Assembly (NCBI GenBank): GCA_020152595.1
Contig: JAIGNY010000476.1
Span: 2,213,740 to 2,277,739, forward strand
Reading direction: 5' to 3'
DNA length: 64,000 nucleotides
Origin: Chiridota heheva
Taxonomy: Eukaryota > Echinodermata > Holothuroidea > Apodida > Chiridotidae
Below the pieces are notes generated by a model. It worked only from the letters and a program-made list of their open reading frames with translations, made no database searches and was not told the DNA's origin. A program made the translations under genes and the position numbers. Of the stretch, positions 5,981 through 48,820 are shown piece after piece (positions within the stretch are counted from its first letter, which is position 1; every line of letters begins with the position of its first letter).

Positions 5981-5989
5981 ATGATGGAA

Positions 5990-8090: not shown

Positions 8091-8092
8091 AA

Positions 8093-8160
8093 AATGGCAC
8101 CCCACATGGCATCCAATGTCCTACATGGCATCCCTCTATGTGTCCCACATGGTGACATTG
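8093..8160. repeat. Short block of the 24-bp minisatellite
   Basis: Roughly three units of the catggcatcc/gtcccacatgg type, the same family as the long array at 11610. One further stray unit lies near 8500-8525 (gtcccacaaatggcatccc). It marks a third position of this family in the intron. Confidence 0.6.
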
Positions 8161-8176
8161 GTGTTCTTCTAACACC

Positions 8177-21449: not shown

Positions 21450-21950
21450 TTAAGTCCATTGGAAGAGCATTCCAGAATTTTGGAGCTGATGCCGAAAAAA
21501 GTCCTGTCGCCAGCAAGTTTCCTGGTCCTGGGACGATTTAGTGTAATAGCAGCAGCTGAGCGAGTGGACGCGTTGGGCGTGGACATCTATACAGTCTGAG
21601 ATATAGCTAGGGGAAACTTTGTTGAGTGATTTGAAGACAAGTAAGAGTACTTTAAAAATGATTCTTTTATTAACAGGAAGCCAATGAAGTTCTTCGAGAA
21701 GAGGCGCGGAGTGCGTACGTGGAGGGGAGAGCATAGCGAGTCTAGCAGCCTTATTTTGTAAGCGCTGAAGCTTATCAAGATCTTTCTTGTTTAGTCCGCA
21801 GTACAAAGAGTTACAATAATCAAGGCGTGAGGAAATCAAGGCTCTCACAGCACTGTGACAAGTGTCAACATCAATGAATCGTCGAATATGCCATAAATTA
21901 CGAATGTGAAAATTGACAGTTGAACTAAGTTTGGATATTTGATTGGTCAT
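21450..21950 (-). pseudogene. LINE polyprotein C-terminal segment
   Basis: Reads SRLDYCNSLYCGLNKKDLDK, LQRLQNKAARLA and LLEELHWLPVNKRI, the conserved post-RT thumb of CR1/L2-group LINEs (L-D-Y-C-N-x-L-Y; L-x-x-L-H-W-L-P). The end of the frame departs from the family after VHAQRVHSL, so a frameshift lies near 21560. The true terminus with SWNSL-like residues is in another frame near 21500. Confidence 0.85.
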
Positions 21951-22042
21951 TTTAATGGACGAGTCAAAGTAGAAACCGAGGTTGCGGACACTATTTGACT
22001 GTTTTATTGTTGCATTTCCAACAGTCAGTGTGATGTTTTGAA

Positions 22043-23255
22043 CTAGATGTAGTGAAAGATGTGGTGATGCAGAGATGAAAAAATCAGTTTTGTTTCATTA
22101 AGTTTAAGTTTATTAGCAGTCATCCATGATTGAACATCAAAAACACAATTTGTGAGTCTGGTTGGTGTATGCTGTATATCAACGATATCAGTAGGGTCAA
22201 AGTTGGGAAATATTTGAATGTCATCGGCATACATGTGGTAATTGACACCGTGCTTCCTAAGAATATCACCAAGTGGTGTGGTATAGAGAGTGAACATCAA
22301 ATGGCCAATAACTGAACCCTGTGGTAATCCAAAAGAAATGTGATTAATAGCTGATAGTGCATCAGCTATGCGAACACAGTTGGTCCTTTCGCGTAGATTA
22401 GACTTAGCCCACTCAAGATTCCTGTGATTCCAAACCTTTTTTCTAGGCGATCACAAAGAATAACATGATCAACCGTGTCGAAAGCTGCTGATAAATCAAG
22501 AAGCAGCAACATAACTTTTTTTTTGATCATCAATAGCTTTCAGGATTTCATCTTGCACTTTGAGAAGGGCCGTTTCTGTTGAGCGATTAGATTCGTATGC
22601 AGACTGCAGAGTTTCAGCTAATCCATGTTCGTTGATATGATCATTTAATTGAGCAGCCATGACCTTTTCAATTATCTTGGATTTGAATTGTAGGTTTGAG
22701 ACAGGCGGTAGTTCTTTAAATTATTCTTGTCAAGAGTGGATTTTTTCAAAATTGGGGTGACCACAGCTTCTTTAAGTGAATCCGAAATTCACCTGTGGAG
22801 AGCGAGAGATTAACAATGTTAGTCAGCTTAGGTAACATAATAGCAAGATGTTGTTTCAGAAGCCAAGTAGGGAGTTGATCCAGGGAGCACGATTTTGAAG
22901 GAGAGCGATGTATAATTGCAGCCAGATCAACAGTAGAAATTGGTTTGAAAGATTCAAACATGTGTAAAGTTTGTAGACTTTCAGCACGATGATTATTTGT
23001 CACAGATGATTGTTGATCAATGACTTCCATAATCTTGTTTACTTTGTCGCTGAAGAATCCAGAAAAATCATTTGCTAGGTTCTCTGGGGAGTCATGAACT
23101 GGTAGTGGGCGATCTTTGTTATTCAGGAGAGTTGTGATAGTTTTGAAAGCGTCCTTAGTAGTGCAATCAGAGAGCATATCAGTGTAGAACGTAGTCTTTG
23201 CTTTTACAACACAGTCTTTGACATTTTGTTTGGCGGATTTGAGGTCATCAAACAA
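22043..23255 (-). pseudogene. LINE reverse transcriptase domain, frameshifted
   Basis: A long N-terminal frame (23255-22746) holds SPSKSCSLDQLPTWLLKQ, the entry motif of L2-type RTs. After a break the plus-strand complement gives NYRPVSNLQF, then LLLDLSAAFDTVDH (the first catalytic aspartate), then GLPQGSV. A last frame (22300-22043) gives HMYADDIQIF, the catalytic YADD box, and KLKLNETKL. The motif order and spacing are intact; only the frame is broken, near 22745, 22510, 22430 and 22330. The domain copies the element RNA at the nicked target. Confidence 0.88.
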
Positions 23256-23286
23256 GATATCAGTGTTGTGTTTCCGGTATTTCCTT

Positions 23287-24246
23287 TCACAGCGTTACGT
23301 TCGCGACGAGCAGATACAATCTCTGAGTTATACCATTTAGGTTGCGTTTTGATTGGAGCGACTTAGTTTGTAATGGGGCATGTGTATCAAGAATATCATG
23401 GATGACTGAATCAAAATCAGATATTGCATCATTAACATTTAGATCTGTGTCCATGTGATTTGTTTCACTATTCTCAGTAGAGGTGAATTTACTGCATAGA
23501 TCACGGGCGAAAGCAATGCGGTCGATATCCTGATATTTCCTGAAAGTAAATGTTTTGCGAATGGTACAAGGTTTAGGTATGTTCAAAGTGCAGCAAATTA
23601 CGTGGTGATCCGATTCAAGGTTTCTATGGATAGTCACGTTAGAAATAATGTGATCATCAGCTCTAGTAATTACAGGATCCAATATATGTCCAAGAGTGTG
23701 AGTAGGTTCAGAAATATGTTGAACCAGATCCACGGCAGTGAGAGTGGATAAGACATGGCCGACATCAGATTTGTTGGGTTGATCAAAGTGAACATTAAGA
23801 TCACCAAGTTACACAAGATGTCCGGGCAGTAAGTTAACAGCATCAATGAAGTCATCAAATTCTGATAAGAAGCCAGATATGGTAAACCCATTACGAGGTG
23901 AAGGCGGTGGTCTGTATATCACAATGAACTGAAGAGTGTGTGATGTATTTGAAATCAAAGCATATTCAAAACTTGAAGTAGCAGGTAGAGAAGTGGTGAC
24001 ATGTTTCATTTTCAGTTCATTCTTATATAAAATCCCTATTCCACCATGATGATCAGTCTCAGACACTCTTGGGACATTAATAAAGGCATACCCAGGTGGA
24101 GTCAATTCACCGATTACAACGGCATCATCAGGGTGGAGCCAGGTCTCTGTGAGAAACATAATGTCAACATCATGTTCAAGTACATAATCAAGACAGTAGT
24201 GGGACTTATTGCGAATAGAATGAGAGTTCCAGTGACGTATATTCAA
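23287..24246 (-). pseudogene. LINE AP-like endonuclease domain, frameshifted
   Basis: Two frames. 24246-23809 begins NIRHWNSHSIRNKSHY and carries FLTETWL, with the catalytic glutamate, then GGIGILYKNEL and IVIYRPPPSP. 23733-23287 carries EPTHTLGHILDPVI and the SDHHVICCTL motif, with the catalytic aspartate and histidine. The GDLN step between them lies in a third frame at about 23810-23790. The domain nicks target DNA to prime reverse transcription. The split into three frames makes this copy inactive unless the indels are sequencing errors. Confidence 0.85.
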
Positions 24247-29967: not shown

Positions 29968-30674
29968 GAAAACCTGTTTTACTATACATATTCTTTCGGA
30001 GGTATTATTAGGAAGGTTTGACACTAAAAATCGCGGTATCTGAGAGATCAAGAAACGTCACACGGAGTGGGACAACCATTGTTAACTGGTTAACAGTACC
30101 TCCGAAACAATGAGTATAGTGAAACACGTTTTCAAGACTTCTGTTTTGCACAATATATATTATGTAATATTTGTCATCTTTGTTTTGTGTATGGGCAGTG
30201 CCGCTACTTGTGTGGCGTTTCCGATCTCTCAGATACCTTAAATTTTAGTATCAATCCTTGTTAAACAGTACTTCCGAAAGAATGACTATAGTGAAACAGG
30301 TTTTTTAATAAAGAAAATTTGCACAATTTAACTTGCATTCTTTGCAATATTTGTTTTGTACAGGGAGATAGGCCCCACCTGTGTGATTTCTAATGTCAAC
30401 TTATGTTAAACAGTACCTACATAAGAATGAGTATATCGACTATTTTTTGCACAAATTATACTACAATTTTCTTCGTCATCTTTGTCACCTGTGTGGCGTT
30501 ATTCGATTTCTCAGATACCGCAAAATTTAGTGCCAACCTTTGTTAAACAGTACCTCCTAAAGAATGAATAAAGGGAAACACGTTTTTAATCTTTTTGGTT
30601 TTGCACAATATAAATTGTAATATTTTTCATCTCTTGTGTGGCGTTTTCGATCTCTCAGATACCTCAGTTGTAAA
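29968..30674. repeat. 168-bp satellite, left block with an inverted junction
   Basis: Units carry the ordered words taaacagtacctccgaaaga, atgagtatagtgaaac, ttttgcacaatttaaattgc, tctttgttttgtgcag, gtgtggcgtttc, gatctctcagatacc and ttttagtgtcaa. Positions 29968-30065 are in reverse complement relative to the rest, with the switch at a palindrome, gttaactggttaac (30081-30094). The block stops at 30661-30670 (acctcagttg), where the foldback element begins, and resumes in the same orientation and nearly the same register at 42871. Confidence 0.85.
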
Positions 30675-30680
30675 AGGTAG

Positions 30681-30780
30681 CTATACAGGTAGTGACCAAT
30701 CAGAAGCCAGCATTGGTATCACGTGATAGCTCATTTGCATATACTTAATGCTGGCTTCTGATTGGTCACTACCTGTATAG
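30681..30780. repeat. Terminal hairpin of the left foldback arm
   Basis: A perfect 34-bp inverted repeat (30681-30714 against 30747-30780; tips ctatacaggtagtgacc and ggtcactacctgtatag) with a 32-nt loop that itself contains the palindrome atcacgtgat. It sits at the outermost tip of the arm. The same hairpin in opposite orientation closes the right arm at 42755-42854. Confidence 0.95.
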
Positions 30781-31440
30781 TGACCTCTAAAAACATTTCT
30801 TCTGGGTTATCGGATTGCGTCACAAGATATTCTCAATTGTTCCACAAAGTCCTTTTAATGAATTGTATAGCTTTTCCTGAATGGGTGTGTCAGGTGGGGG
30901 ATCTCATGGTACTCATTGTCGCCCATTTCACAACAATACACCCTGGTAGTCTGTTGATTAAAAGCTTAGATTTGTCAAAGATTTTAAACTGTACAAATAA
31001 TATAAATAAATCGCCATATCACAATTATCGATAATATCGGGATAATATCGTCACAATTTACCGAGTCACGTCATTCGAGAAGACATTGTTTACTTTTCAT
31101 GTTTGAAACCATGGAGCCTACTATTTGGGAATAGTATCTCCATGTGGAGACCAACGTTTTGAAAATAGGTAAGATTCGAGCGGCGATATCTTTTAAACGG
31201 TGTAATTTAAGCTGCGATATCTTTTAAACGTGTACGATTTGAGAACGAAATTTTATTTCCAAATCCCATTCACTTTGCACAGGGAGCAAAATTTGAGCAA
31301 CGATATTTTGAAAACGTGAATAGGTTGAGAAGACATTTTTTTCTGACACTCCTCATTTGAGAAACAATTTTTCTGAAACACTCATTTGGGAAACAATTTT
31401 TTCTGAAAGACTGTAATTTGAGGCAGTTTTTTGCTCAACT
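30781..31440. repeat. Left arm, outer domain
   Basis: Non-coding arm sequence paired with 41085-41735 in inverse. It includes atatcttttaaacg words repeated at about 31180-31230 and repeated gaaacaattttt..ctgaaa units at 31355-31415. The apparent frame at 30762-31034 has a matching frame in the other arm (41472-41735, minus) with similar residues (SSGLSDCVTRYSQLF). That follows from the arms being copies and does not by itself show coding. Confidence 0.75.
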
Positions 31441-31454
31441 GTTTTTTATTTGGG

Positions 31455-31740
31455 AGGACAAAGCTGTCGTCTAACGGGGGAATAACAGGACAGAACTGGA
31501 CTTTAATGCAAAATACGGGGTCTATGGGGGGCTAAATTGTTGGAATAATTGGACAAAACTACGTTTTAAACGGAAAAAATGGCGTCAACGGGGAATGACA
31601 AGACAGAACTGGACTTTAATGCAAAATACGGGGGGTCTATGGGGGCTAAATTGTGGGAATAATCAGACAAAACTACGTTTTAAACGGAAAAAATGGCGTC
31701 AACGGGGAATGACAGGACAGAACTGCGCTTTAAAAGGAGG
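31455..31740. repeat. 117-126-bp tandem module, left arm
   Basis: Two and a half units with acagaactggactttaatgc, ctaaattgt, gacaaaactacgtttta and aaaatggcgtcaacgggg. The right arm carries three to four units in inverse at 40650-41045, and one stray unit lies in the centre at about 38018-38072. Confidence 0.85.
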
Positions 31741-31817
31741 TGGGACTTGATTCCAAACCACGCCCCTAAACTTTTCCTCAAACATTACATTTGAGCATGC
31801 ACTTTTGAAAATCCAGT

Positions 31818-32096
31818 GAAGAAGAAGAAGAAGAAGAAGAAGAAGAAGAAGAAGAAGAAGAAGAAGAAGAAGAAGAAGAAGAAGAAGAAGAAGAAGAAGA
31901 AGAAGAAGAAGAAGAAGAAGAAGAAGAAGAAGAAGAAGAAGAAGAAGAAGAAGAAGAAGAAGAAGAAGAAGAAGAAGAAGAAGAAGAAGAAGAAGAAGAA
32001 GAAGAAGAAGAAGAAGAAGAAGAAGAAGAAGAAGAAGAAGAAGAAGAAGAAGAAGAAGAAGAAGAAGAAGAAGAAGAAGAAGAAGAAGAAGAAGAA
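31818..32096. repeat. Pure (GAA)93 triplet tract
   Basis: An uninterrupted 279-bp run of GAA, followed by imperfect GAA/CAAGAA repeats to about 32187. The right arm has only about 14 CTT triplets at the same place (40530-40570), so the tract expanded in the left arm after the arms were formed. The poly-lysine and poly-phenylalanine frames it generates are not genes. Long GAA/TTC runs can adopt triplex DNA. Confidence 0.97.
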
Positions 32097-32187
32097 AGAA
32101 AAAAGAGTTAAAAAGAAGAAGAAGAACAAGAACAAGAACAAGAAGAAGAACAAGAACAAGAACAAGAATAAGAAAAAAAAAAAAAAA

Positions 32188-32262
32188 GAAGGAGCAAGAG
32201 GAGGAGCAAGAGGAGGAGCAAGAGGAGGAGCAAGGGGAGGAGGAGCAAGAGGAGGAGGAGAC
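32188..32262. repeat. 12-bp minisatellite (ggagcaagagga)
   Basis: About six units next to the GAA tract. The right arm holds the inverse (ctcctcctcctgctc-like) at 40475-40530, in a more diverged form. Confidence 0.85.
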
Positions 32263-32639
32263 GAAGAATCAGGGCGTCAAATTTGAGAAGGTATTTTTTC
32301 GTTTTGATGTGTACTTCAGTTTTTGAAATTCCTTGAGCCTTTTTTTTTCTCAACCATCCACTTTGAAAGGATAATTTGAAGAAAAAAAAGTGGTAAAAAA
32401 CGAGGGAAATGGGTTTGCGCTGTGCCAAAGCACTACTTTGCCCGAGTTATATTGCCCTATGCGAGGTTGACAAAAATAGATTAATTGACCAATCGGATGG
32501 ATTTAAAATAACAAAAATCTGTTACGTATGTAATGGACCAATACCATTATTTAATATTCGTCTCTCATGCTTTATCCCATGGTAGCAGACATCAAGGACA
32601 TTTAGGCAATAGATCTATATTGATCCAATAAACAAACAT

Positions 32640-35430
32640 GGATTATGAATGTTTTTTCTCATACTATTGATATCGATTTGCCACGCAAACATCTTCAAAG
32701 ATATTTTCCCCATTATTATATTATCACACTTTGACCACTCTATTATTAAGCACGCATTATGTACAAAAATGATGTTTTGATCGGTCTATTTTTGGCCATG
32801 CAAACAGCTTCACAGATAATTTTACCCCATTATTATATCTTTACACTTTGACCACCCTATTATTAAACACGCATTATGTACAGAAATGATGTATCGATCG
32901 GTTCTCTTTGTCAAACACAAGGAGATCCAATATTGAATAAACACACATGGATTATGAATTTGTTCTTCTTATACTATTGATATCGATTTGCCATGCAAAC
33001 ATCTTCACAGAAAATTTTACCCCATTATCATATCATTACACTTTGACCACCCTATTATCAAACACGCATTATGTACAGAAATAATGTATCGATCGGTTCT
33101 CTTTGTCAAGTACAAGGACATTTAAACAAAGGATATATATTGATCCAATATTGAATAAACACACATGGATTATGATTTTTTTCTCATACTATTGATATCG
33201 ATTTGCCACGCAAACATCTTCACAGATAAATTTACTATATCATCACACTTTGACCACGCATTATGTACAGAATTGATGTATCGATCGGTTCTCTTTGTCA
33301 AACACAAGGAGATCCAATATTGAATAAACACACATGGATTATGATTTTTTTTCTCATACTATTGATATCGATTTGCCATGCAAACATCTTCACAGAAAAT
33401 CTTACCCCATTATCATATCATTACACTTTGACCACCCTATTATCAAACACGCATTATGTACAGAAATAAAGTATCGATCGGTTCTCTTTGTCAAATACAA
33501 GGACATTTAAAGAAAAGATATATATTGATCCAATATTGAATAAACACACATGGATTATGATTTTTTCTCATACTATTGATATCGATTTGCCACGCAAACA
33601 TCTTCACAGATAATTTTATCCTATCATCACACTTTGACCACGCATTATGTACAGAATTGATGTATCGATTGGTTTTCTTTGTCAAACACAAGGAGATCCA
33701 ATATTAAATAAACACACATGGATTATGATTTTTTTCTTCTCATAATATTGATATCGATTTGCCATGCAAACATCTTCACAGAAAATTTTACACCATTATC
33801 ATATCATTACACTTTGACCACCCTATTATCAAACACGCATTATGTACAGAAATAATGTATCGATCGGTTCTCTTTGTCAAATACAAGGACATTTAAACAA
33901 AGGATATATATTGATCCAATATTGAATAAACACACATGGATTATGATTTTTTTCTCATACTATTGATATCGATTTGCCACGCAAACATCTTCACAGATAA
34001 ATTTACTATATCATCACACTTTGACCACGCATTATGTACAGAATTGATGTATCGATCGGTTCTCTTTGTCAAACACAAGGAGATCCAATATTGAATAAAC
34101 ACACATGGATTATGATTTTTTTTTCTCATACTATTGATATCGATTTGCCATGCAAACATCTTCACAGAAAATCTTACCCCATTATCATATCATTACACTT
34201 TGACCACCCTATTATCAAACACGCATTATGTACAGAAATAAAGTATCGATCGGTTCTCTTTGTCAAATACAAGGACATTTAAAGAAAAGATATATATTGA
34301 TCCAATATTGAATAAACACACATGGATTATGATTTTTTTCTCATACTATTGATATCGATTTGCCACGCAAACATCTTCACAGATAATTTTATCCTATCAT
34401 CACACTTTGACCACGCATTATGTACAGAATTGATGTATCGATTGGTTTTCTTTGTCAAACACAAGGAGATCCAATATTAAATAAACACACATGGATTATG
34501 ATTTTTTTCTTCTCATAATATTGATATCGATTTGCCATGCAAACATCTTCACAGAAAATTTTACACCATTATCATATCATTACATTTTGACCACCCTATT
34601 ATCAAACACGCATTATGTACAGAAATAATGTATCGATCGGTTCTCTTTGTCAAATACAAGGACATTTAAACAAAGGATATATATTGATCCAATATTGAAT
34701 AAACACACATGGATTATGATTTTTTTCTCATACTATTGATATCGATTTGCCACGCAAACATCTTCACAGATAATTTTCCTATCATCACACTTTGACCACG
34801 CATTATGTACAGAATTGATGTATCGATTGGTTTTCTTTGTCAAACACAAGGAGATCCAATATTAAATAAACACACATGGATTATGATTTTTTTCTTCTCA
34901 TAATATTGATATCGATTTGCCATGCAAACATCTTCACAGAAAATTTTACACCATTATCATATCATTACACTTTGACCACCTATTATCAAACACGCATTAT
35001 GTACAGAAATAATGTATCGATCGGTTCTCTTTGTCAAATACAAGGACATTTAAACAAAGGATATATATTGATTCAATATTGAATAAACACACATGGATTA
35101 TGATTTTTTTCTCATACTATTGATATCGATTTGCCACGCAAACATCTTCACAGATAATCTTACCCTATTATCACACTTTGACCACGCATTATGTACAGAA
35201 ATGATGTATCGGTCGATTTTCTTTGTCAAACACAAAGACATTTAAACAAAGGATCTATATTGATCCAATATTAAATAAGCACACATGGATTATGATTTTT
35301 TTCTTCTTATACTATTGATATCAATTTGCCATGCAAACATCTTCACAGATAATTTTACCCCATTGTTAAACATCAAATAATCAAACATACAGTACTTTGA
35401 CCACCCTATTATTAAACACGCATTATGTAC
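32640..35430. repeat. 193-bp tandem array with 386- and 771-bp higher-order periods, left arm
   Basis: Each unit carries cacacatggattatgatttt, then attgatatcgatttgcca, then caaacatcttcacaga, then tttgaccac, then cgcattatgtacagaa, then tatcgatcggttctctttgt, then aatattgaataaac. Two unit types alternate (ccacgcaa and ccatgcaa), giving a 386-bp dimer. The block starting near 33160 recurs almost base for base 771 bp later, near 33930, so a tetramer was duplicated very recently. The right arm has about three older units in inverse at 38745-39400. Confidence 0.93.
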
Positions 35431-35842
35431 AGAAAAAAGTTTCGATCGGCCCTACAATATTTTAACCCCCATTATTAAACAGCAATAACAAAAAATACGC
35501 ATGATGTACACAAAATAAATCGACTGTATATCCTACATTAAAAAACAAGGCCCGTGACGAAAGATAGAACTTAGTCAAATTGCGTTTGGTTTCTTCTACA
35601 CTTGAACTTCATGTCCTCAAATGACCCCGAAGCAACACCGAATAAGGGCAGTTGGATGCGGAATAAAAAAATCTTCAGTCATTTGCCTCGCGGGGAAATA
35701 AAAAAATCGACACTTTTATCCAGGATAAATGTGCAGAGTGACCCTAGCAATCATGTTTGTTCTGACGTCATACTCCAACATCTGCTGGCTTGTGTTAGCC
35801 CTTTGTTAAACCGTATGTAATCAAATCAATCAATACAGGACA

Positions 35843-38260
35843 TACTAATTTCTTTTTGTGAGATGCTCTTGTGTATTATCGATGTGTGTAAGCATACCTT
35901 GATGACATATTCACCGCAGATGACTTTTAATAATTTGAAAAAATCACGGTTCCTCAATATATCGGTCAAAATAGACGTCTTTTCACACGTGATGTTTGAA
36001 CAGCCAGTGGAAATCCTTTGCTCGATTGGACAGCCCAGTGGATCTCAGCTATTTTCCTAACCAACAGTTCTTAACAACTCCCTGCGTCAACCTATGCATA
36101 CATTGATATCTTATGAAACTGAGAAAGAAAAAAAAAGCTCAGACACGAATTTTGTACAAGGAACGTCCGCCTTGGAAAAGGTCAAGGAAAGGTTACGGAG
36201 GTCACGTTATAAACGTGTTAGAACATGCCGTAAGCAAAAAACAATCCAAACAAGCAGGGACATGACACAAATGTCTTATGGGACAAGGCTATGACAATGT
36301 CAAACAGGGATGGGTGTGGTGAAAATGTCTAATGGGCCAACTTGGCTAACTGGGACAGGGCCGAACAGACGACCATGTGAGGGAAATGTCAGTAGGTAAT
36401 GGCAACAAAGTTTGTATGTTTTCTCAAAAAGAATGTTAATCAGCATTAACATTCTTTTCAGGAGCATCATTAACCACACAATCAAGAGCTCCGTTGTCGA
36501 GACTATCCTGTGATGCAAGTGAAATTATATACAATGTTGATACCCGTAGTATGAAATAAGTGTTTCATATGTAACATCAAGTAGTCTAACAAAAATATTG
36601 TGGGTCAACTGTACGAAATTAAAAGCAATGTTTTGGAACCTACACTATCACAACGACGTAAGAAGACACCTGCACAACGGTAATGATGCAAAAGAAGGCG
36701 CCTAAAAGGCGTTATATTATACTGCATTTTTTTATCATTGAACTAGTGTTGTAGCATCTTTGTACCCCCAATGAAGAACATGTTCCTAATTATATGCAAA
36801 CTGTTGTAGTACATGACACTATACAATGGAACCTAAACAATATTTATTTTTAGTCTGGAGATAAGGTAAAAATCGATAGCCTATTCTGCTAAGAGACAAC
36901 ATTGTCCAGTGAGCAAACGTTTTTTATGATGATACTGCATGACGATTTTCGAAGGTGTACGAATCATAGTAAAAAATCAATATCAGTCGCTATTAATGTA
37001 TAGTGTCTTATGTTGTTGAGTTTTTGTGAGAATGGAAAAATATTCATTTTGTTATAAAAAAGTGTTAATATATATATTTTGTACAGTCCACTCACATGAT
37101 CACATGATCGTGTTTAATATTAGGTAACAATAAGCAGCTTGGCCGTTGTAACACCCCGACATATAATATATATACATATATATTATATATGTCGATAATA
37201 CCAGGGCAACTAGCCCTGGGAGGAGGGGGACCTTTAGCCATAAACACATCATTTATTATTAATTTTTTTGTAATTACCAATAATTTTTTACTTCTGTTTT
37301 GTTATATATTTTTTTTCAAGGACGGTAAAAAGGATCAATTTAAAGAATAAAATTAATATCGTATAGAGTTGTAGAAAGGAGGTTTTAAAGCATTTTTTAC
37401 TATTGAAGTATATTTTGTTTGTCATAGACCAATATATTTGTAAAAGTAGGAAAACTATTGTTTCACAATCCACCCTGTGCAAATAGGATCTAAAATTCTT
37501 TGCGCATTTTTACTAAAATAAGAAGGGAAAAAAAGACTGTTATCTAATGCTTAGCGCCAGCTTCAGAATTTTCAATTTGGCGGTAACTTTAATTGTTTTA
37601 CCTATAATTCATGTAACGTGATTGGTCAGAGAGAAAGCGCGGGAATCTTAGACTGTTTTGTACTCCTAATGTATACTCAATATTTGTGTTAAGATAAAAA
37701 TCAAAGTTTGGGGTCAAATCTACCGTTTTAGATTTTGTAACCAATATGCATGACTTTTCTTAGTATCATTGCTCATCTTTTATGCAGGTAGGGGTCAGAT
37801 TTTCTTAAGAAATTCACGGGCAATTGAGGGGTCCACTATCAGATGCCCATTGGGATTAGGCGTTTTTTCTCCCCTGTAGGCCTTAGTCAGTTAATATAAT
37901 AATGAACACTTACAGTTATTTTGCTAAAGTGCTTATATTGACTCTAACACAAAAACACAAAAAAGAACCGTTCCAGCCATAGCGGTAGGGCCAATTTTTG
38001 CTCAAACATTATGATTTGAGCGGACAGAACTGCGTTTTTACGAGCAAAATGGCGTCTACGGGGAAATAACGTAATATATGATAGCTATCTGTTTTCAAAT
38101 TGTATGAGCGCTATAATTACACCATACGTAAGTACCCAATGTATGTAAACAACCAATAATCCAGTCAGCTCCATCGATCGAAATTCCATTTGGTAGATAA
38201 CAAAGGGCGTGGCTCTTTTGGTCACTGGAAACATACCATGCGTTGATCCCACTTTTCCTC
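35843..38260. other. Unique centre of the foldback element
   Basis: About 2.4 kb between the arms. No transposase, integrase or polymerase is recognised. Frames at 35863-36060 and 36094-36294 (plus) and 36300-36518 (minus) are short and resemble no family I know. There is a hairpin at about 36433-36455 (gaatgttaat..cattaacattc), an AT palindrome at about 37160-37193 and a stray 117-bp arm module at about 38018-38072. The centre could be ordinary host DNA caught between two insertions, or the element's own non-coding core. Confidence 0.55.
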
Positions 38261-38744
38261 TGTCCTGTATTGATTGATTTGATTATATACGGTTTAACAT
38301 AGGGCTAACTCCAAGCAACAGATGTTGGAGTATGACGTCAGAACAAACATGATTGCTAGGGTAACTCTGCACATTTATCCTGGATAAAAGTGTCGATTTT
38401 TTATTTCTCCCGCGAGGCAAAGGACTGAAAAGAAAAAAAAAGATTTATTCCGCATCCTTTTTTCCCAATTTACCGTTGTGTCAATTTTGCTGTATGTGGT
38501 CCGTTTCCTGTGTTAAATTTCACTTTAGACCTGAATGTATGTACCAACTGCCGTCAATCGGTGCTGCTACTAGGGTCATTTGAGGACATGAAATTCTAAG
38601 TGTAGAAGAAACCGAACGCATTTTGACTGAGTTCTATCTTTCGTCACGGGCCTTGTTTTTTAATGTAGGATATACAGTCGATTTATTTTGTGTACATCAT
38701 GCGTATTTTTTGTTATTGCTGTTTAATAATGGGGGTTTAAATGT

Positions 38745-39400
38745 TGTTGAGCCGATCGATACATTATTTCTGTACATCATACGTGTTTAATAATAGGGTG
38801 GTCAAAGTACTGTATGTTTGATTATTTGATCTTTAACAATGGGGTAAAACTATCTGTGAAGATGTTTGCATGGCAAATCGATATCAATAGTATGAGAAGA
38901 AAAACAAATTCATAATCCATGTGTGTTTATTTAATATTGGATCAATATAGATCCTTTGTTTAAATGTCTTTGTGTTTGACAAAGAGAACGGATCGATACA
39001 TCATTTCTGTACATAATGCGTGTTTATTAATAGGGTGGTCAAAGTGTGGTGATATGTTAATGGGGTAAAATTATCTGTGAAGCTGTTTGCAAGGCAAATT
39101 GATATTAATAGTATAAGAAGAAAAAAATCATAATCCATGTGTGTTTATTCAATATTGGATCAATATAGATCTTTTGTTTAAATGTCCTTGTGTTTGACAA
39201 AAAGAACCGTTCGATACATCATTTCTGTACATAATGCGTGTTAAATGATAGGGTGGTCACAGTGTGATGATATAATAATGGAAAAAAATTATGTGAAGAT
39301 GTTTGCGTGGCAAATCAATATCAATAGTATGAGAAAAAAATAATTCATAATCCATGTTTACTTATTGGATCAATATAGATCCTTTGTTTAAATGTCCTTG
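38745..39400. repeat. 193-bp tandem array, right arm (inverse)
   Basis: About three units in reverse complement of the left-arm array, with more substitutions among themselves. The array is four times shorter than on the left, so the left array expanded or this one contracted. Confidence 0.88.
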
Positions 39401-39510
39401 ATGTCTGTTACCATGGGATAAGGCATGAAAGACGAATATAAGATGATGGTATTGGTCCATTACATACGTAACCGATTTATGTTATTTTGAATCCATCCGA
39501 TTGGTCAATT

Positions 39511-40085
39511 AATAGTGGTGTGATGACCATATATGGCAACAGTATTGAATGTCATTCAAGACTGAACATTTAAAAGCGGGGTGAAGATTTTGTTTTATCA
39601 TTCATAGCAGTCGTCAGCTGCACTAATAAACACAACGTGTTATTATATATTGAGTTATAACGTGTTGACATTTCGTGTTATACTTATTGTGTTGTATTAC
39701 TACATTGTGTGCATACTGCGCGTTTGATTACCATGACACTCTATAAAGAGAGAAGCCAATCGTCGTTTAGGAGAACAGCAGGGGTGGTGGAATATGAGCC
39801 TGATCCTAAAGTACGGGGTTGCGTCATTCATTAGTGTCTTGCTCAAATAAATCTGCCACTGTAATTACTTTAGGATTTGAATATGGTAAGTGTGTTTCAG
39901 GGTTTTCTTTTTGGGTTGATGGCTAGCAATAAGATGTGAATTGATAGATTGGTTTATGAATTGCTTGAAATTACCCCGGATGGTGGTATAAAATGTACAC
40001 GCCAACATTCACAAGGAAGAAAACACACCTTGCCTACCCTTGATACGCTAGAATTGCCTGAAGTTAGACGGGGGTAGCGACTTTT
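39511..40085 (+). other. Insertion unique to the right arm, with promoter-like signals
   Basis: The left arm reads without this segment (compare about 32450-32490), so about 575 bp were inserted on the right. It contains ccatatatgg (39527-39536, a perfect CArg-type CC(A/T)6GG box), tataaag (39742-39748), aataaa (about 39846) and atatg followed by gtaagtg (39893-39900), the layout of a promoter with a first exon ending in a splice donor or of a solo LTR. No matching LTR was found. The first bases (ggtgtgatgaccatatatgg) recur at 41870-41889. Any transcript is unproven. Confidence 0.45.
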
Positions 40086-40315
40086 TTTTCGTCAAGCTCG
40101 CAATATAACTCGGGCGAAATCGGGTCTAAGTAGTGCTTTGGCACGGCGCAAGGTTCGTCGACGTTCCATCATCATGGCGCTTCTCTTCGGACAGCCCTAG
40201 ACTGGTCGATGTTCACTTATAACATAATACATATCTACAATTCATAACGTCTTAGATACTTTTGTCCCATTCTCAAGGCAATGACATCATTATCGCTTGT
40301 ACGCAATAAAGTCCA

Positions 40316-40610
40316 TTGCTTTTTAACCCATTTCCCTCGTTTTTTACCTCGTTTTTTTCTTCAAATTATCCTCTCAAAAGTGGATGGTTGAGAAAAAAGA
40401 GCGCTCAAGGAATTTTAAAAACTGAAGTACACATCAAAACGAAACAATGCCTTCTTAAATTTGACGCCCTAATTCTTCTCCTCCTCCTCATGCTCCTTCT
40501 CCTCGTGTTGCTCCTCCTTCTCCTGCTCCTCCTGCTTCTTCTTCTTTTTCTTCTTCTTCTTCTTCTTCACCGGATTTTCAAAAAGTGCATGCTCAAATGT
40601 GATGTTTGAG
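40316..40610. repeat. Right arm, short CTT/TCC tract and flanks
   Basis: Inverse of 31795-32440. CTT and CTC triplets occupy about 40475-40570 with few pure repeats. The frame at 40316-40609 (leucine-rich) and its reverse are products of the triplet repeat. Confidence 0.85.
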
Positions 40611-40649
40611 GAAAAAAGTTCATAGGGCGTAGTTTGGAATCGAGTCCCA

Positions 40650-41045
40650 CCGCATTTTAAAGCGCAGTTCTGTCCTGTCATTCCCCCGTTGACGCCATTT
40701 TTCCCGTTAAAAACGTAGTTTTGTAAGATTATCCCCACAATGAAGCCCCCGTAGACCCCCGTATTTTGCATTAAAGCGTAGTTCTGTCCTGTCATTCCCC
40801 CGTTGACGCCATTTTTGCCCGTTAAAAACGTAGTTTTGTCCAATTAGTTCCACAATTAAGCCCCCGTAGAACCCCGTATTTCGCATTAAAGCGCAATTCT
40901 GACGTGTTATACACCCCGTTAACGCCATTTTTCTCATTAAAAACGTAGTTTTGTCCGATTATTTCCACGATTAAGCCACCGTAGACCCCCGTAGTTCGCA
41001 TTATAGTGCAGTTCTGTCCGGTTATTCCCCCGTTAGACGCCATTT
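40650..41045. repeat. 117-bp tandem module, right arm (inverse)
   Basis: Unit starts with gcagttctgtcctgtcattc at about 40661, 40779, 40895 and 41013, spaced 116-118 bp. Units contain cccccgttgacgccattttt, aaaacgtagttttgt and gcccccgtagacccccgta. Minus-strand frames such as 40469-40843 and 40822-41076 run through the units and reflect the period. Confidence 0.88.
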
Positions 41046-41639
41046 TTGTACTCTTAAATGAAAAACAGTTGAGCAAAAAACTGCCTCAAATGACATTGTT
41101 TTAGAAAAATTGTTTCTCAAATGAGTGTTTCAGAAAAATTGTTTCTCAAATGAGAAGTGTCAGAAAAAAATGTCTTATCAACTTATGCACGTTTTCAAAA
41201 TATTGTCGCTCAAATTTTGCTCCCTGTGCAACATCAATGGGATTTAAACATATAATTTCGTTCTCAAATCGTACACGTTTAAAAAATATCGCAGCTTAAA
41301 TCACACCGTTTAAAAAATATGGCCGCTCAAATCTTACCTATTTTCAAAACGTTGGTCTCAACATGGAGATACTATTCCAATATAGTAGGCTCCATGGTTT
41401 CAAACATGACAAGTAAACAATGTCTTCTCGAATGACGTGACTTGGGAAATTGTGACGATATTATCACGATATTATCGATAATCGTGATATGGCGATTGAT
41501 CTATATTAATTGTACAGTTTAAACTCTTTGACAAATCTAAGCTTCTAATCAACAGACTATCAGAGTGTATTGTTGTGAAATGGGCAACAATGAGTACTAT
41601 GATAACCCCCACCTGACACACCCAGTCAGGAAAAGCTAT

Positions 41640-42750
41640 ACACTTTGTTAAAAGGACTCTGCGGAACAATTGAGAATATCTTGTGACGCAATTCGATGAC
41701 CCAGAAGAAAGAATCTCTATACAGGTAGTGACCAATCAGAAGCCAGCATTGCAAATGAAATATACACCTCGTTAAAAGGTCTCTGCGGAACAAGGTATTG
41801 GTCACGGTCCATTACATGCGTAATAAAATCATGTCATTTTTTGACCAATAAGATTGGTCAATTAATAGTGGTGTGATGACCATATATGGCAACAGTTTTG
41901 AATGGAAAAAATATGGGCTTGGGACGATGATGAAGAAGTCATCGTTCCCGTCCACTACTCTTACCGCATCCAGAGAGACGGTTCCGGTAAAGTTCTCACC
42001 AGAGCCATCACCAAGGAATATCGACTGATCTATACAAAACGCGTCATTCAGCCCGATCTCACAACCCTCCCGTACGGGTATTAAACCTTTCATCCCACAA
42101 GTCCCAGTACACGAAACGGACAGGGTTGTCCACGACAATCAGGTGATTCAATTAGACCACACTGCTAAATGCCAACATTCGTAACTCAAGATCCGATGGA
42201 ACCCTAATGAGGGCGGAAGGAGAAAAAAGAGCTACCATGGCTTGCCTTCTACTATATCCTGCGTTGGTTGGGGCAGGTACTTTTACCCTACAATCACCTG
42301 ACACACCCAGTCAGGAAAAGCTATACACCTCGTTAAAATGACTCTGCGGAACAATTGAGACAATCTTGTGACGGCAATCCGATGACCCAGATGAAAAATC
42401 TCAGGTTGGGAAAATCTCAGGGGTCGTTATACAGGTAGTGGCCCATCAGAAGTCAGCAAAGGATTATATGGAACAGTCGAGACTATCCCGTGACGGCAAT
42501 CCAATGACCAAGAGGTAAAATCTCAGGGGCCGCTATACAGGTAGTACCCAATCAGAAGTTAGCATTGCGAATGAACTATACACTTTGTTGAAAGGACTCT
42601 GCGGAACAATCGATAATATCTTGTGACGCAATCCGATGACCAAGAGGGAAAATCTCAGGGGCCGCTATACAGGTGGTGGCTTATAAGAAACTCCGTTGTC
42701 GAGAATATCTTGTGACGCAATCCGATGACCCAAAAGGAAAAATCTCAGGG
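41640..42750. repeat. Right arm tip: tandemly repeated terminal module with an insert
   Basis: The words tcttgtgacgcaatccgatg, aaatctcagggg, ctatacaggtagt..c, atcagaag..agcatt, aaaggactctgcggaacaat recur at about 41640-41760, 42300-42470, 42470-42560, 42590-42680 and 42700-42790. Between the first two lies an unrelated insert (about 41765-42290) holding short open frames. The left tip has a single copy, so the right tip has expanded. Confidence 0.82.
41902..42084 (+). CDS. Small uncharacterised open frame, 60 residues
   Basis: Starts ATG just after a second copy of the ccatatatgg box (41880-41889) and reads MEKIWAWDDDEEVIVPVHYS, then YRIQRDGSGKVLTRAITKEY, then a basic stretch and TTLPYGY. 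Third codon positions are much richer in C and G than the surrounding AT-rich arm, and the composition looks protein-like. A further 34 codons stay open in the next frame (42080-42184), so a one-base indel may split a longer protein. A third ATG in strong context (taccATGgct, 42237-42341) opens a short hydrophobic frame that runs into the arm repeat. I do not recognise a family. It is absent from the left arm. It could be a captured host or mobile-element exon, or chance. Confidence 0.35.
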   Translation: MEKIWAWDDDEEVIVPVHYSYRIQRDGSGKVLTRAITKEYRLIYTKRVIQPDLTTLPYGY

Positions 42751-42754
42751 GTCA

Positions 42755-42854
42755 CTATACAGGTAGTGACCAATCAAAAGCCAGCATTAAGTATATGCAA
42801 ATAAGCTATCACGTGATACCAATGCTGGCTTCTGATTGGTCACTACTTGTATAG
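42755..42854. repeat. Terminal hairpin of the right foldback arm
   Basis: A 34-bp inverted repeat (42755-42788 against 42821-42854) with two mismatches and a 32-nt loop that is the reverse complement of the loop at 30715-30746, confirming opposite orientation of the two arm tips. Further half-hairpins (ctatacaggtagt..) are scattered at 41718, 42430, 42533 and 42665. Confidence 0.93.
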
Positions 42855-42870
42855 TTACCTCTTACTACTT

Positions 42871-45220
42871 ACCTCAAGTTTTTAAACAGTACCACCGAAA
42901 GAAAGAGTATAGTGAAACACGTTTTTTTTGTGCACAATATGAATTGTTTCCGATCTCTCAAAAACGTTAAGTTTTAGTGTCAACTCTTGTTAAAAAGAAC
43001 TTTCGAAAGAATGACTACGGTGAAACAGGTTTTTGAAGAATTTGTTTTTGAACAATTTAAATTGCAATCTTTGTCATATTTGTTTTGTGCAGGAGGTAGT
43101 ATCTCCCCCCCACCCCCCTCCCCCTCCCTTCTTTCCTACTTCCACCTGTGTGGCATATCTCGATTTCTATGATACCGCGAGTTTTAGTGTCATCCTTTGT
43201 TGAACAGTACCTCTTAAAGAATGAGTATAGTAAAACAGGTTTCCAAGACTTTTTTTAACATTTTAAACTGCAATCTTTGTCACATTAGTTTTGTGCAGGG
43301 GGAAGTGTGGCGTTTCTCGATCTCTCATATACCACGATTTTGTGCAGGGGGAAGTACCCCTACCTGTGTGGCGTTTCTCGATCTCTCATATACCGCAATT
43401 TTTAGTGTTTTCGTTGTTAAACAGTACCTACGAAAGGATGGGTATAGTGAAACAAGTTTTAATGACAATCTTTTGCACAGTTTAAATTGCAATCTTTGTC
43501 ATCTTTGTTTTGTGCAGAAGGTAGTGCCCAACTTGTGTGGCGTTTATCAGTCTCTCAGATACCGCATGTTTTAGTGTAAACTCTTTTTAAACAGTACTTA
43601 CGAAAGAATGAGTAGTTTGAAACATCTTTTCATGACTATTTTTGCACAATTCAAATTACAATTTTTGTCATCTTTTTGTAGCGTTTCTTGATTTCTCAGA
43701 TACCGTTGTTTCTAGTGTCAATCCTTCCTAAACAGTAACTCCGAAAGAATGTGCATAGTGAAAAAGGTTTACATGACCTTTTTGCACGACTTAAACTACA
43801 ATTTTTGTCATATTTGCATAGGGAAGTGTGTGGTGTTTATCGATCTCTCATATACCGCAATTTCTAGTGCTAACTCTTGTTAAACTGTACTTCCAAAAAA
43901 ATGAGTACACTGCAACAGGTCTTAAAGACTTTTTTTGCAAAATTTAAATTGCAATCTTTGTCATAATTCTTTTGTGCATGGCGAAGTGACCCCACCTGTT
44001 AAGCGTTTCTTGATTTCTCAGATACCGCCGTTTTTAGTGTCAACCCTTGCTAAACAGTAACTCCGAAACAATGTGCATAGGTCAAAAAAATTACCATGAA
44101 TGTTTTGCACAACTTAAATTACAATTTTTGTCATATTTGCATATTTGCATGGGAAAGTGTGTGGTGTTTATCGACCTCTCAGATACCACAATTTCTAGTG
44201 CCAATTCTCTTGTTAAACTGTACTTCCGAAAGAATAAGTAGAGTAAAACAAGTTTTCAAGACTTTTTGTTTGCACAATTTAAAATGCAATCTTTTTTATC
44301 TTTGTGTTGTGCAGATTTTTCAATATTTTTGTATATTTGCACAATTCAAATTGCAATCTCTTTAATCTTTGTTTTGTGCCAGAGGCAATAACTCTATAAC
44401 TAGATCTCTAAGAAACCTCAAATTTTAGTGTCAACCCTTGTTAAAGAGTACTTCTCAAAGAATGAGTATAATGAAACAGGTTTCCCACACTTTTTTGCAT
44501 GATTTAAATTACAAATTTTGTCATATTTGCTTTGTTCAGAGGAAAAAGTGTGTGGCTTTTTTCGATCTCTCAGATATCGCAATTTTTAATGTAAACCTTT
44601 GTTAAACAGTATCTCCGTAAGAATGAGTATAGTGAAATAGGTTTTCATGACTATTTTTTCACGATTTCAATTTCAATTTTTGTCATCTTTGTGTGGCGTT
44701 TCTTGATTTCTCAGATACCGCCGTTTCTAGTGTCAACCCTTGCTAAACAGTAACTCCAATAGAATGTGTATAGTGAAAAAGGTTTCCGTGACTTTTTTGC
44801 ACAACTTGAAATTACAATTTTTATCATATTTGCTTTGTGCATAAGAGAGTGTGTGGTGTTTCTTGATTTCCAGATACCTCAATTTCTAGTGGCAGCTCTT
44901 TTAAACTGTGCTTCCAAAAAAATAAGTATAGTGAAACAGGTTTCCAAGACGTTTTTTGCACAATTTAAATTGCAAATCTTTTTCATCTTTGTTTTGTGCA
45001 AGAGGCAATGACTGTATGACTAGATTGCTCAGATACCTCAAATTGTTGTGTCAAGCCTTGTTAAACAGTATTTCAGAAAAATTGAGTATAGTGAAACAGG
45101 TTTTCAAGACTTTTTTCACAATTTGAATTGCGCTTTTTGTCAAATTTGTTTTGTGCAGCAGTCAAGTGTGTGGCGTTTCCGATATCTCAGATACCTCAAA
45201 TTTTAGTGTCAATCCTTGTT
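42871..45220. repeat. 168-bp satellite, middle block
   Basis: About fourteen diverged units of the same satellite as 30085-30674, same orientation, resuming right after the foldback element. Measured unit spacing is about 168 bp (for example from aaacagtacctacg at 43420 to aaacagtacttacg near 43588). There is a small internal duplication of gtgcagggggaagt..tctcatataccac at 43295-43400 and a C-rich run at about 43107-43130. Open frames across units are not conserved between units, so this is not coding. Confidence 0.9.
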
Positions 45221-45512: not shown

Positions 45513-46265
45513 TTAGATAGAATCATATAAGCTTAGAAAGTAATTCTTAAGATGAGACTTAAATGTTTTGACATTATTTACGTTTTTAATAACTTGCGGT
45601 ATGTCATTCCAGACTTTTACACCCGTATATCTTAAACAATGTTGGGATAGTGTAAGCCTAAATTTCGGAATACGGTAATCATTATGACCTCTGGTTTTGT
45701 AAAAGTTTTGCGAGAAAAAATGGTCAAAAGCATTGGGTAAATTGTTATTCTTATATTGATACATGGTTATAGCAAGTTGGTATTTATGGAGGTCAAATAT
45801 ATTAAGAGTTCTCAATTTAAAGAAGATCGGTGCGGTATGGGCATTAAAAGGACTGCCAGTGACAATTCGAATGGCACGTTTTTGCAAAAGAAAAAGCTTT
45901 TGTATGTGAGAAGGATAAGCACCACCCCAAGCGACATTACAATATGATATATACGGCAAAATCAAAGTATTATATAGCATCTTAAGTATATATTCAGGAA
46001 AATCTGTTCTTAATCTGTTTAATATACCAGTACCTTTTGCTAATTTATTACAGATACAATCTATATGAAGTTGCCAATTTAGATTGCAATCCACTAATAC
46101 ACCTAGAAATGTTGAGGAGGGGGAATGATTAAAATTTACATCACTAATGGAGAGTTTGAGGTAAAGGGACCAGTCACGACGAGTAGGAGTAAAGAAAACT
46201 GAAGTAGTCTTCTTTACATTAAGGGATAACTTATTTACATTAAACCAAGATGCATACTTATTCAA
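45513..46265 (-). CDS. LINE polyprotein C-terminal segment, intact frame
   Basis: An uninterrupted frame of 250 codons beginning MNKYASWFNVNKLSLNVKKT. Next is TFLGVLVDCNLNW, then LILPYISYCNVAWGG, LFLLQKRAIRIVT and IFDLHKYQLAITMYQY, ending VWNDIPQVIKNVNNVKTFKS and a short hydrophobic tail. These are the post-RT thumb and tail words of Daphne/CR1-group LINEs. It starts with TTG because the true start lies upstream in the RT frame, from which one base separates it (46262-46265). Confidence 0.85.
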   Translation of the reverse strand: MNKYASWFNVNKLSLNVKKTTSVFFTPTRRDWSLYLKLSISDVNFNHSPSSTFLGVLVDCNLNWQLHIDCICNKLAKGTGILNRLRTDFPEYILKMLYNTLILPYISYCNVAWGGAYPSHIQKLFLLQKRAIRIVTGSPFNAHTAPIFFKLRTLNIFDLHKYQLAITMYQYKNNNLPNAFDHFFSQNFYKTRGHNDYRIPKFRLTLSQHCLRYTGVKVWNDIPQVIKNVNNVKTFKSHLKNYFLSLYDSI

Positions 46266-47487
46266 ACCTGAACCGCTTTGTCAATTACTGTATGAGGAGA
46301 ACGATGGGAGTAAAAAAGAGTTGTGTCATCCGCATAAAGTGAAGGTGAAAGAACAGAGCTAATTCGATGCATATCATTTATATATATTACAAATAACAAA
46401 GGACCAAGAATTGAGCCTTGTGGCACTCCACAAGAAATAAACTTGGAATTAGATTGAGTACAAGAATAGGATACAAATTGCTGACGAAGTTTTAGATAGT
46501 TACGAAGCCAATCAAGTGGCATGCCACGAATACCGTAAGTTGATAATTTATGCGAAAGAATAGAGTGATCCAGGGTGTCAAAAGCTTTTGACAGTTCTAA
46601 AAAAAGTACAATGGGCAACTTCTTTTCTCTCAAAAGCTTGGGTGATTTTATCAATGAGATGCAACAGAGCATGAGCAAGTTGACCTGCCAGGGAGGAAAC
46701 CAAACTGGAATTTATAAATAATTTTGTGAGAAAACAGAAAACTGATGAGCCTATCAAAAACAATTCTTTCAAATATTTTGGAGAAGCATGGTAAAATCGA
46801 AATAGGTCTATAATTTGTGATTTGCTCCTTATCACCACTTTTAAAAATAGGAATAACCTTAGCTGCTTTGAGATTATCAGGCATAGAAGCTGTTGACAAT
46901 GAAAGATTAACAATATACGACAATGGTTTACAAATAATAAATGAACATTTTTTTACAACACTAGGGGAAATATCGTCAAAACCAGGAGCAGCAGATTTAA
47001 GACCATTAATTAATTCAAGCACTTCAGCATCATTTGTAGGATGAAGATAAAAAGTGGAAGGATTGGATGGGGGCAAGAACTCCTCAAACTTATGTTTATT
47101 AGACGGTGGGATTTTACCTGCTAATTTTGAACCAATTGAAATAAAATAATCATTAAAAGCATCACATATCTCCTTAGGGGCATTATATGTTTTTTCATTG
47201 AGAGTTAGTTTATTTAGGCATTTGCTTGTTTCATTCCCTCCCCTACAGTACTTATTAATTACAGACCAGGTACTTTTTATATTACCAGCACAATTAGCAA
47301 AACTATGAGCAAAATACATTTTCTTGGCAACACGTATAACTGAGGTGAGTTTATTGCGAAACACTTTATGTTCATTACGGTTCTGGGCAAAGGGGTTTCT
47401 TTTGTACCTCTTAAAAAGCTGATTCTTAGTTTGACAAGATTTGATTATACCATTCCTTATCCAACTGTTTTGTTTATTACATTTCAT
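46262..47487 (-). pseudogene. LINE reverse transcriptase domain, one internal frameshift
   Basis: 47487-46651 carries WIRNGIIKSCQTKNQLFKRY, then KSAAPGFDDISPSVVK, AKVIPIFKSGDKEQITNYRP and a GFLPGRST motif. 46678-46262 continues with LSKAFDTLDHSILSHKLS (first catalytic aspartate), GVPQGSILGPLLFVIYIND and LYADDTTLFYS (catalytic D-D). These are the canonical RT motifs in order, all intact. The shift near 46670 and the ATGA overlap with the endonuclease frame at 47484-47487 look like single-base indels rather than a true second reading frame. Confidence 0.9.
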
Positions 47488-48820
47488 AACTGAAAAACAA
47501 ACGGGAAAGAAATTATCATAGTGTGTAAGAAAAATTGAAACAAACTTATTATATGCTGTATTTGCATTAGTTGCATGATAAACCTTGGACCAATCTTCCC
47601 TGAAAAGTTCACAACAGAACTCATCAATCCGAATAGGGGTAAATTTACGTAAACGAACAATGTTTTTAATTTTTTAGGAGAAAATGGTGTTTTTAAAACA
47701 CTGAAGATTGGAAAATGATCAGATATATCAGATATCAAGACTCCATTTATGGAATGAAGTTCCGGCATATTTGTAAATATGTTGTCGATTAATGTCATTG
47801 AGGAATCGGTTACACGAGTGGGTCGATAAATTAACGGATAGAAAGAGCATGATAATAGCAAGTTGAAAAAGTCATTTGAACGTGAGTCTTGAGTTTCCTT
47901 ACTAAGGTCAACATTAAAGTCACCCATAACAAAACAAGGGCAGTTGTAACTTGATATTTTCTCAAGGTGCATGACATTTTTTCAAAGAATGAGATACTAC
48001 CAACACCATGTGGACAGTACATAATACCTACAATAGCTTTAGTTGAAAACAGATCACAATTAATTTCAATAAATAAAGACTCAAAATCACGTTCTGAGGA
48101 GAATGATAAGTCATCTAAAACAGTAAATGAAATATTGTTTTTGACATAGAGACATACACCGCCTCCAACTTTGGCAGGCCTATCAACACGTACTAAAGAA
48201 TATCCATCAAATCTAAATAAAGATGAACTATGGACATGATTGAACCATGTTTCAGAGATGCCCATGACAGTAAAGTTAAAATTTAGGGAAGCAAAATAGA
48301 CCTGAAGATCATCAAAATGAGCAGGAAGACTTCTAATATTATTATAAAATATGGAGAAATGATTATCAATAGATGGGGAGATATTAACATTAAGATCCTC
48401 ATGGTAGTCACAATTTTGTGATAAGGAAAGGAGCATTTGGTCAAAAATGGTATTGCTTCCACCATCGTCATTTATACTTGGGCTAGGGAACGACATATTT
48501 CCAAATAATTGGCTAAACATTGGAATGCAATGAATACATGAGATATTATTCCTGTCTGTTAATTGTTTGCATAGTTGGAAGTTTAGACAAGTTTCATGAT
48601 ACAAAAAAATATTTTGACATTTATTGCATCTGAAATATAAATCTGAATTTTGTTGTAAATTCTTAAGACAAAACCCGCATTGACCATTATGCATTAACAA
48701 TGACATAGCACAAGTTGTCACACAAAAGACAATAAAAGAAAAGAAACAGCAACAATGAAAGAACTCTAGAGAACGTTGATCAAAGAAAACAGTTTCATCA
48801 CGTAACTTCCTGGAGTGCAT
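47484..48820 (-). pseudogene. LINE N-terminus: PHD-like finger and AP endonuclease
   Basis: 48820-47831 begins with a hydrophobic patch (residues 20-38). Next comes a cysteine/histidine pattern C-G-F-C, C-N-K-C, H-E-T-C and C-I-H-C (about residues 48-98), spaced like a C4HC3 PHD finger. The endonuclease follows, with FSIFYNNIRSL and VMGISETWF (catalytic glutamate) and GGGVCLYVKNNISF. The frame shifts near 47950 into 47972-47484, which continues CFVMGDFNVDLSK and ISDHFPIFSV, the catalytic aspartate/asparagine and final D-H pair. All endonuclease catalytic residues are present. Such zinc fingers occur in first reading frames of some CR1-group LINEs; here it precedes the endonuclease in the same frame. 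Confidence 0.85.

Follow-up and report, generated by a model that had tools for sequence, protein, structure and literature searches.

Background

The TU elements of sea urchins are foldbacks with tandem-repeat arms, as is the element described here, and make an 8-bp target duplication. The present element occupies positions 30666–42869 of a 64,000-nucleotide stretch of the Chiridota heheva genome (contig JAIGNY010000476.1, positions 2,213,740 to 2,277,739 of the forward strand; this whole stretch is called the window), spans ~12 kb and could fold into one huge hairpin. The FB/Tetris elements of flies, which are Mutator-like, share with it long inverted tandem-repeat arms and a variable middle without a gene, but their target duplications are 8–10 bp, as against 6 bp here, and Polinton genes are not reported in the consulted portion of the article describing them, which lists sea urchin among the foldback hosts (PMC4079207; all articles are cited here from excerpts). 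Galileo, of the P superfamily, likewise has long internally repetitive arms, and also chimeric copies without matching duplications, resembling one copy found here on contig C699; it differs in its 7-bp duplications and its P-type transposase (PMC3573991).

Polinton/Maverick elements, by comparison, carry a signature of a 6-bp duplication together with (AG)3//(CT)3 or (AGT)2//(ACT)2 ends (PMC8097293), and the same duplication length is given in PMC10045372. The element in the window shares the 6-bp duplication and the (AGT)2//(ACT)2 ends, holds the 3′ end of a PolB gene in one arm, and is accompanied in its genome by gene-bearing relatives that share its tips. It departs from Polintons in having no intact gene, in belonging to a family with members down to 161 bp, and in its ~5-kb inverted arms of tandem modules, compared with terminal repeats of 46–1,447 bp in the published elements (PMC8097293) or 336 bp in a gene-bearing relative described below. 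The 6-bp duplication, the end motif and the genes lying between the same tips place it with Polinton/Maverick, and we regard it as very probably a non-autonomous foldback derivative of that family in the same genome; an earlier note, made from the letters of the window, had grouped it with FB or TU elements, a placement that these three features supersede.

Target site and termini

Both ends of the element abut a copy of the hexamer TACCTC and lie 9 bp outside those first proposed. The earlier note had offered acctcagttg and acctcaagtt as candidate duplicates of 9–10 bp; that pair is out of register, and a target duplication of this length is ruled out. The termini follow the pattern 5′-AGTAGT...ACTACT-3′, the second of the two published Maverick end motifs, exactly on the right (ACTACT) and with one mismatch on the left (AGTTGT). 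As had been noticed from the letters, the element splits one satellite unit: once one TACCTC is removed and the flanks are joined, the junction can be aligned through to neighbouring units, apart from a gap of ~15 bases directly to its right.

A family with common tips

The genome assembly (1.1 Gb, 3,744 contigs) was searched for further copies; several searches scored part of their candidates, and the resulting counts are lower bounds. A 23-base tip pattern that includes the end motif (≤3 mismatches allowed) gave 752 matches, compared with one for the reversed control pattern, and a 401-base tip query gave at least 120 (40 of 1,594 first-look candidates scored). Both flanks were compared for 22 opposed tip pairs including the window, a non-random set made up of those visible in the tip searches, nearly all on different contigs and with the C270 pair left out. 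An exact 6-bp duplication flanks 17 of these 22 pairs and a duplication with one mismatch two more (C231, C3235), whereas left flanks compared with the right flanks of other elements agreed to within one mismatch in 4 of 462 combinations. The foldback is real, and not a product of assembly or chance, as the 752 tip matches to one and the 17 exact duplications among 22 pairs attest; the search for copies with flanking duplications that the earlier note had proposed was thus productive. Elements with exact duplications range from 161 bp (C272, which holds little beyond the tips) to 15.3 kb (C69), and the existence of the 161-bp member suggests that little beyond the tips is needed for insertion.

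Three tip pairs lack matching 6-bp flanks, namely L009 (C699:3104586-3107958), C147 and L033 (C361). These are possibly recombinants between two elements, by analogy with the chimeric copies of Galileo (PMC3573991).

Gene-bearing relatives

Thirty tip loci were read for 1.5 kb inward. Two lead into a packaging ATPase (L032, Adeno_IVa2 at 28 bits with a cut-off of 21; L029, 87% identical to L032) and one, L051, into the C-terminus of PolB. The L032 ATPase piece has at least 151 matches in the genome (150 of 1,032 candidates scored), and such a match lies ≤600 bp inward of six of the 100 listed tips (C1, C34, C94, C135, C231 and C287; the query itself was taken from C287, and C34 had been identified through L029), where an arithmetic estimate of the chance expectation is about 0.01. 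PolB lies 8–11 kb further inward at two listed tips (C135, C1344).

Tips with 6-bp duplications bound gene-bearing elements in C34 and C94. Both ends of the C94 element were read: it is 14.3 kb long, has the exact duplication CAGGAG and a terminal repeat of 336 bp at 91.7% identity, leads at its left end to the ATPase, and consists at its right end of the PolB 3′ end running unbroken to the tip, a stretch that matches window 42397–41926 at 90.5%. These relatives use the same tips as the window element, and the gene-carrying, tip-sharing kin for which the earlier note advised looking are therefore present. Another locus, L050, has near a family tip (666–1001, +) a frame of the PC4-type transcription coactivators (PF02229, 28.7 bits, cut-off 25).

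Architecture of the foldback

Self-comparison identified a left arm of 5,177 bp (30666–35842) and a right arm of 4,609 bp (38261–42869) as inverted copies, in agreement with the 5.2 and 4.6 kb read earlier, with 81% identity over 3,339 aligned columns; the best single block reaches 88.9% over 992 columns (30747–31733 / 41750–40771). Tandem Repeats Finder (TRF) returned the modules of the two arms in mirrored order. The description of the arms as built from the same modules therefore stands in that respect, with the exception of two right-arm stretches, 41760–42700 and 39514–40324, that have no left-arm counterpart, and so does the description of a very large modular foldback. The parts of the element and its flanks are as follows.

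30660–30665, no strand: left copy of the 6-bp target duplication TACCTC
30666–30782, +: left tip with terminus AGTTGT and terminal hairpin (inverted pair of a 34-bp motif)
30783–31467, +: left outer domain, pairing with the right arm in the 88.9% block
31468–31733, +: left ~115-bp tandem module, 2.3 copies (TRF)
31818–32174, +: left GAA tract, 119 units (TRF)
32680–35364, +: left array of the ~193-bp unit (TRF: period 386, 6.4 copies, over 32868–35364; period 117 over 32680–32902)
35365–35842, +: left inner domain, of which 35674–35842 pairs with 38261–38429 at 94%
35843–38260, no strand: centre, a 2.4-kb family module, parts of which align in other loci
38261–38833, −: right inner domain (self-comparison)
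38834–39400, −: right, shorter version of the ~193-bp array (TRF: period 218, 2.6 copies)
39514–40324, −: block without left-arm counterpart in the window, found in other family members
40517–40568, −: right CTT tract, 17 units (TRF)
40657–41047, −: right ~115-bp tandem module, 3.4 copies (TRF)
41048–41759, −: right outer domain (self-comparison)
41902–42081, +: remnant of the Polinton PolB 3′ end, matching the L051 PolB piece
42082–42405, no strand: stretch that in L051 and C94, both gene-bearing relatives, comes after the PolB end
42406–42746, no strand: outer tandem units, in which the tip motif recurs at 42427 and 42533
42747–42869, −: right tip with terminal hairpin and terminus ACTACT
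42870–42875, no strand: right copy of the 6-bp target duplication TACCTC

With 119 units on the left and 17 on the right, the GAA/CTT tract evidently changes length independently in the two arms. The hairpins reported at both tips were recovered by folding with DNA parameters (−45.2 kcal/mol left, −36.7 kcal/mol right; 200 mononucleotide shuffles of the left tip gave −13.6 ± 3.2 kcal/mol), and each consists of an inverted pair of the 34-bp motif, which occurs seven times in the element and not at all in the remaining window (≤8 mismatches). An Rfam search of the window returned no matches.

A PolB end in the arms

Residues 86–120 of the L051 PolB piece are matched by window 41917–42021 (83%, E 4e-16), and the identity of the 41902–42081 remnant derives from comparison with L051; a 60-residue peptide read by hand from 41902–42081 gave no match when scanned against Pfam. 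Outside L051, all PolB matches start between residues 82 and 91, indicating a common breakpoint at which the remainder of the gene was lost. Differences at the three codon positions (71, 36 and 39 in 15 aligned copies) include no third-position excess, so that the remnant is a passenger with no sign of constraint. The earlier note had described TU and FB elements as lacking an obvious enzyme; the window element has no intact gene, but this piece of PolB is present. No integrase piece matched the window in a tblastn search, and because the window holds only the truncated 3′ end of PolB, its element is a non-autonomous derivative rather than a full member of Polinton/Maverick.

Eight two-armed loci were compared (the window, L009, L010, L013, L014, L015, L025, and L011 with L012). 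In three of them (L013, L014, L025) the remnant is present in both arms, inverted, which indicates that the outer arm represents a single end of a Polinton, duplicated in head-to-head arrangement. Judged from these alignments, the outer arm appears to be the PolB-side end of a Polinton, present at both ends in the foldbacks, whereas in the gene-bearing relative one end is the ATPase side.

The centre and its relation to a PolB–integrase block

The 2.4-kb centre had been called unique, and is not: parts of it align in L012, L013, L014, L024, L025 and L028, and, judged against the arm with the 39514–40324 block, it lies in L014 as in the window and in L025 flipped. Among the 20 loci L009–L028, PolB pieces stand beside foldback sequence in two, L024 (PF03175, 30.9 bits, cut-off 25.8) and L028 (91% identical over 111 residues), and in both the PolB reading ends where homology to the window starts, at ~37630 in the centre. 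A genome-wide search was run with the 3-kb PolB–integrase stretch of L024, and 40 of 268 candidates were scored. In six contigs (C415, C749, C826, C828, C1273, C3227) its halves are oppositely oriented and separated by 7.7–13.6 kb; among the candidates scored it is continuous only in C2044, its source, and C1767; and three contigs (C236, C1812, C2997) lack the integrase stretch but have both outer parts, C2997 being a two-tipped 12.9-kb element with an exact duplication. The arrangement of these copies suggests that Polintons underwent internal inversion and deletion in the course of becoming foldbacks.

Beside the integrase and PolB pieces of L024 lies a frame (8141–8443, −) resembling the Bcl-2 apoptosis regulators (PF00452, 20.3 bits, below the cut-off of 31.4), and L028 has a frame 87% identical to it (6173–6463, +); a PDB sequence search with this piece gave no matches at E ≤ 1.

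Other elements

An element of 5.6 kb is nested in locus L027 at ~2846–8453; it has inverted ends of its own, AGTAGAGTC...GACTCTACT, and contains long reading frames. This block was considered as the missing transposase of the foldback and rejected, as it is a separate nested element bounded by those ends; its four open reading frame pieces had no Pfam match, and one frame we take, by eye, to be PIN/XPG-like with a cysteine-rich tail. Elsewhere in the window, a repeat of ~1.06 kb is present in two copies of opposite orientation (1696–2758 and 15342–16398; 87%); it carries short inverted ends, GAGCTGTGACCGTTTAG / CTAAACGGTCACAGC, and looks like a small non-autonomous DNA transposon. Positions 21450–24246 and 45513–48820 (−) hold frames that by eye resemble the endonuclease and reverse transcriptase of non-LTR retrotransposons.

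Origin of the foldbacks and alternative explanations

If the foldbacks derive from Polintons, a Polinton integrase supplied in trans would recognise the tips and insert the element with a 6-bp stagger. The doubled end may have arisen during protein-primed replication, the polymerase switching template and copying back along the same end, and tandem duplication, conversion and deletion would afterwards have shaped the modules. We give an origin by template switching roughly even chances. The subgenomic molecules of phage phi29 are head-to-head. They measure 1–8 kb, come mainly from one genome end and have been discussed together with template switching (PMC4974454); they offer an analogy of mechanism only, being phage DNA in bacteria and not integrated, unlike the foldbacks here. 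Integrated linear plasmids of the protein-primed type are also reported to have long inverted repeats, which may come from panhandle intermediates (PMC1864894). A bolder and distinctly tentative proposal, which we think rather unlikely, is that the foldbacks preserve in the germline the remains of defective-interfering Polinton genomes: protein-primed replication would have produced copies of one replication end joined head to head, and these would have outcompeted full Polintons, been integrated by the Polinton integrase and reached their present high copy number, with the terminal hairpins serving as copying origins.

Several observations weigh against a Polinton derivation or complicate it. 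The element in the window has no intact gene, none of its movement has been observed, and the origin of its inner modules (115-bp, GAA, 193-bp) is not accounted for. Some of the protein evidence is of low score: the L051 PolB piece falls just below the Pfam cut-off (24.3 vs 25.8 bits), as do, by more, two integrase (rve) pieces in L024 (20.8 and 14.8 vs 32.6 bits), the second of which has 110 protein matches at E ≤ 0.001. Three of the 22 tip pairs have no duplication (C147, C361, C699), and the exact duplication at C958 is uninformative because the match sits in a TTC microsatellite. The PolB remnant is in one arm only in three of the eight two-armed loci (window, L010, L015) and in neither arm in two (L009 and L011/L012). 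Lastly, PolB is oriented toward the nearer tip in both L051 and C94 and seemingly inward in the six contigs with the divided L024 block, so that there may be more than one lineage.

Among the rival explanations, the most substantial accepts Polinton descent but has the arms lengthened after integration, by gene conversion of one end over the other past the original terminal repeat, as has been argued for Galileo (TIR1-F1-F1-TIR2). It requires no unusual replication step, and conversion between ends is proposed in PMC3573991, whose excerpt also cites inverted-repeat expansion reported for Polintons, a precedent that weighs against the novelty of the present case. Over one 344-bp module, moreover, arms are somewhat more alike within elements (0.919–0.982, six comparisons) than between them (mean 0.911, 5–95% range 0.881–0.942, 294 comparisons); the window's own arms, however, at 0.919, resemble each other no more than arms from different elements do. 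Conversion also predicts ATPase/ATPase foldbacks alongside the PolB/PolB ones, and none of the former was seen in the small sample read. These identities would fit an ancient common structure that was later homogenised to some degree, and appear compatible with both origin models; we hold conversion to be a credible account, though the less probable side of the question. That an unrelated foldback with its own tips acquired Polinton fragments by recombination or nested insertion is improbable: foldbacks here do hold nested foreign DNA, as in L027, and most of the arm beyond the PolB end is without a match in the Polinton pieces compared, but the same tips and 6-bp duplications bound the gene-bearing C34 and C94 elements, and C94, in which the PolB end continues unbroken to the tip, strains this explanation.

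A cut-and-paste foldback of another superfamily (Mutator/FB, P/Galileo or IS3EU) is very improbable. Most foldbacks seem Mutator-like according to PMC4079207, and IS3EU also makes 6-bp duplications (PMC10045372), but the 6 bp found here contrasts with the 8–10 bp of Mutator/FB elements such as Tetris (PMC4079207) and the 7 bp of Galileo and the P superfamily (PMC3573991); IS3EU/GingerRoot termini are TA..TA, occasionally TG..CA (PMC10045372), as opposed to AG..CT here; and no such transposase was seen beside the tips in the 30 loci read 1.5 kb inward. An assembly artefact or a chance pairing of dispersed repeats, which the repetitive arms and the three tip pairs without duplication might bring to mind, can for practical purposes be dismissed: 17 of 22 duplications are exact, the satellite is continuous across the empty site, and the arms differ by ~19% over aligned columns and are thus not one sequence assembled twice. 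A non-autonomous derivative of the local Polintons accordingly stays the preferred explanation.

Significance

In the open-access literature searched, without Repbase or subscription papers, no report of a non-autonomous or foldback Polinton was found. For foldbacks a source enzyme is often not known; the present one is linked with a specific source. If the derivation is correct, Polintons, equipped with virus-like genes, give rise to dependent elements without coding sequence, as short as 161 bp, which could be counted and dated and would reveal the ends that the Polinton integrase requires. The derivation also opens to experiment the question of whether, in an animal-type genome, mirror-image end molecules are a product of protein-primed replication, in line with what has been discussed for phi29. 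Should the defective-interfering proposal prove true, foldback transposons would have a route of origin separate from that of cut-and-paste elements.

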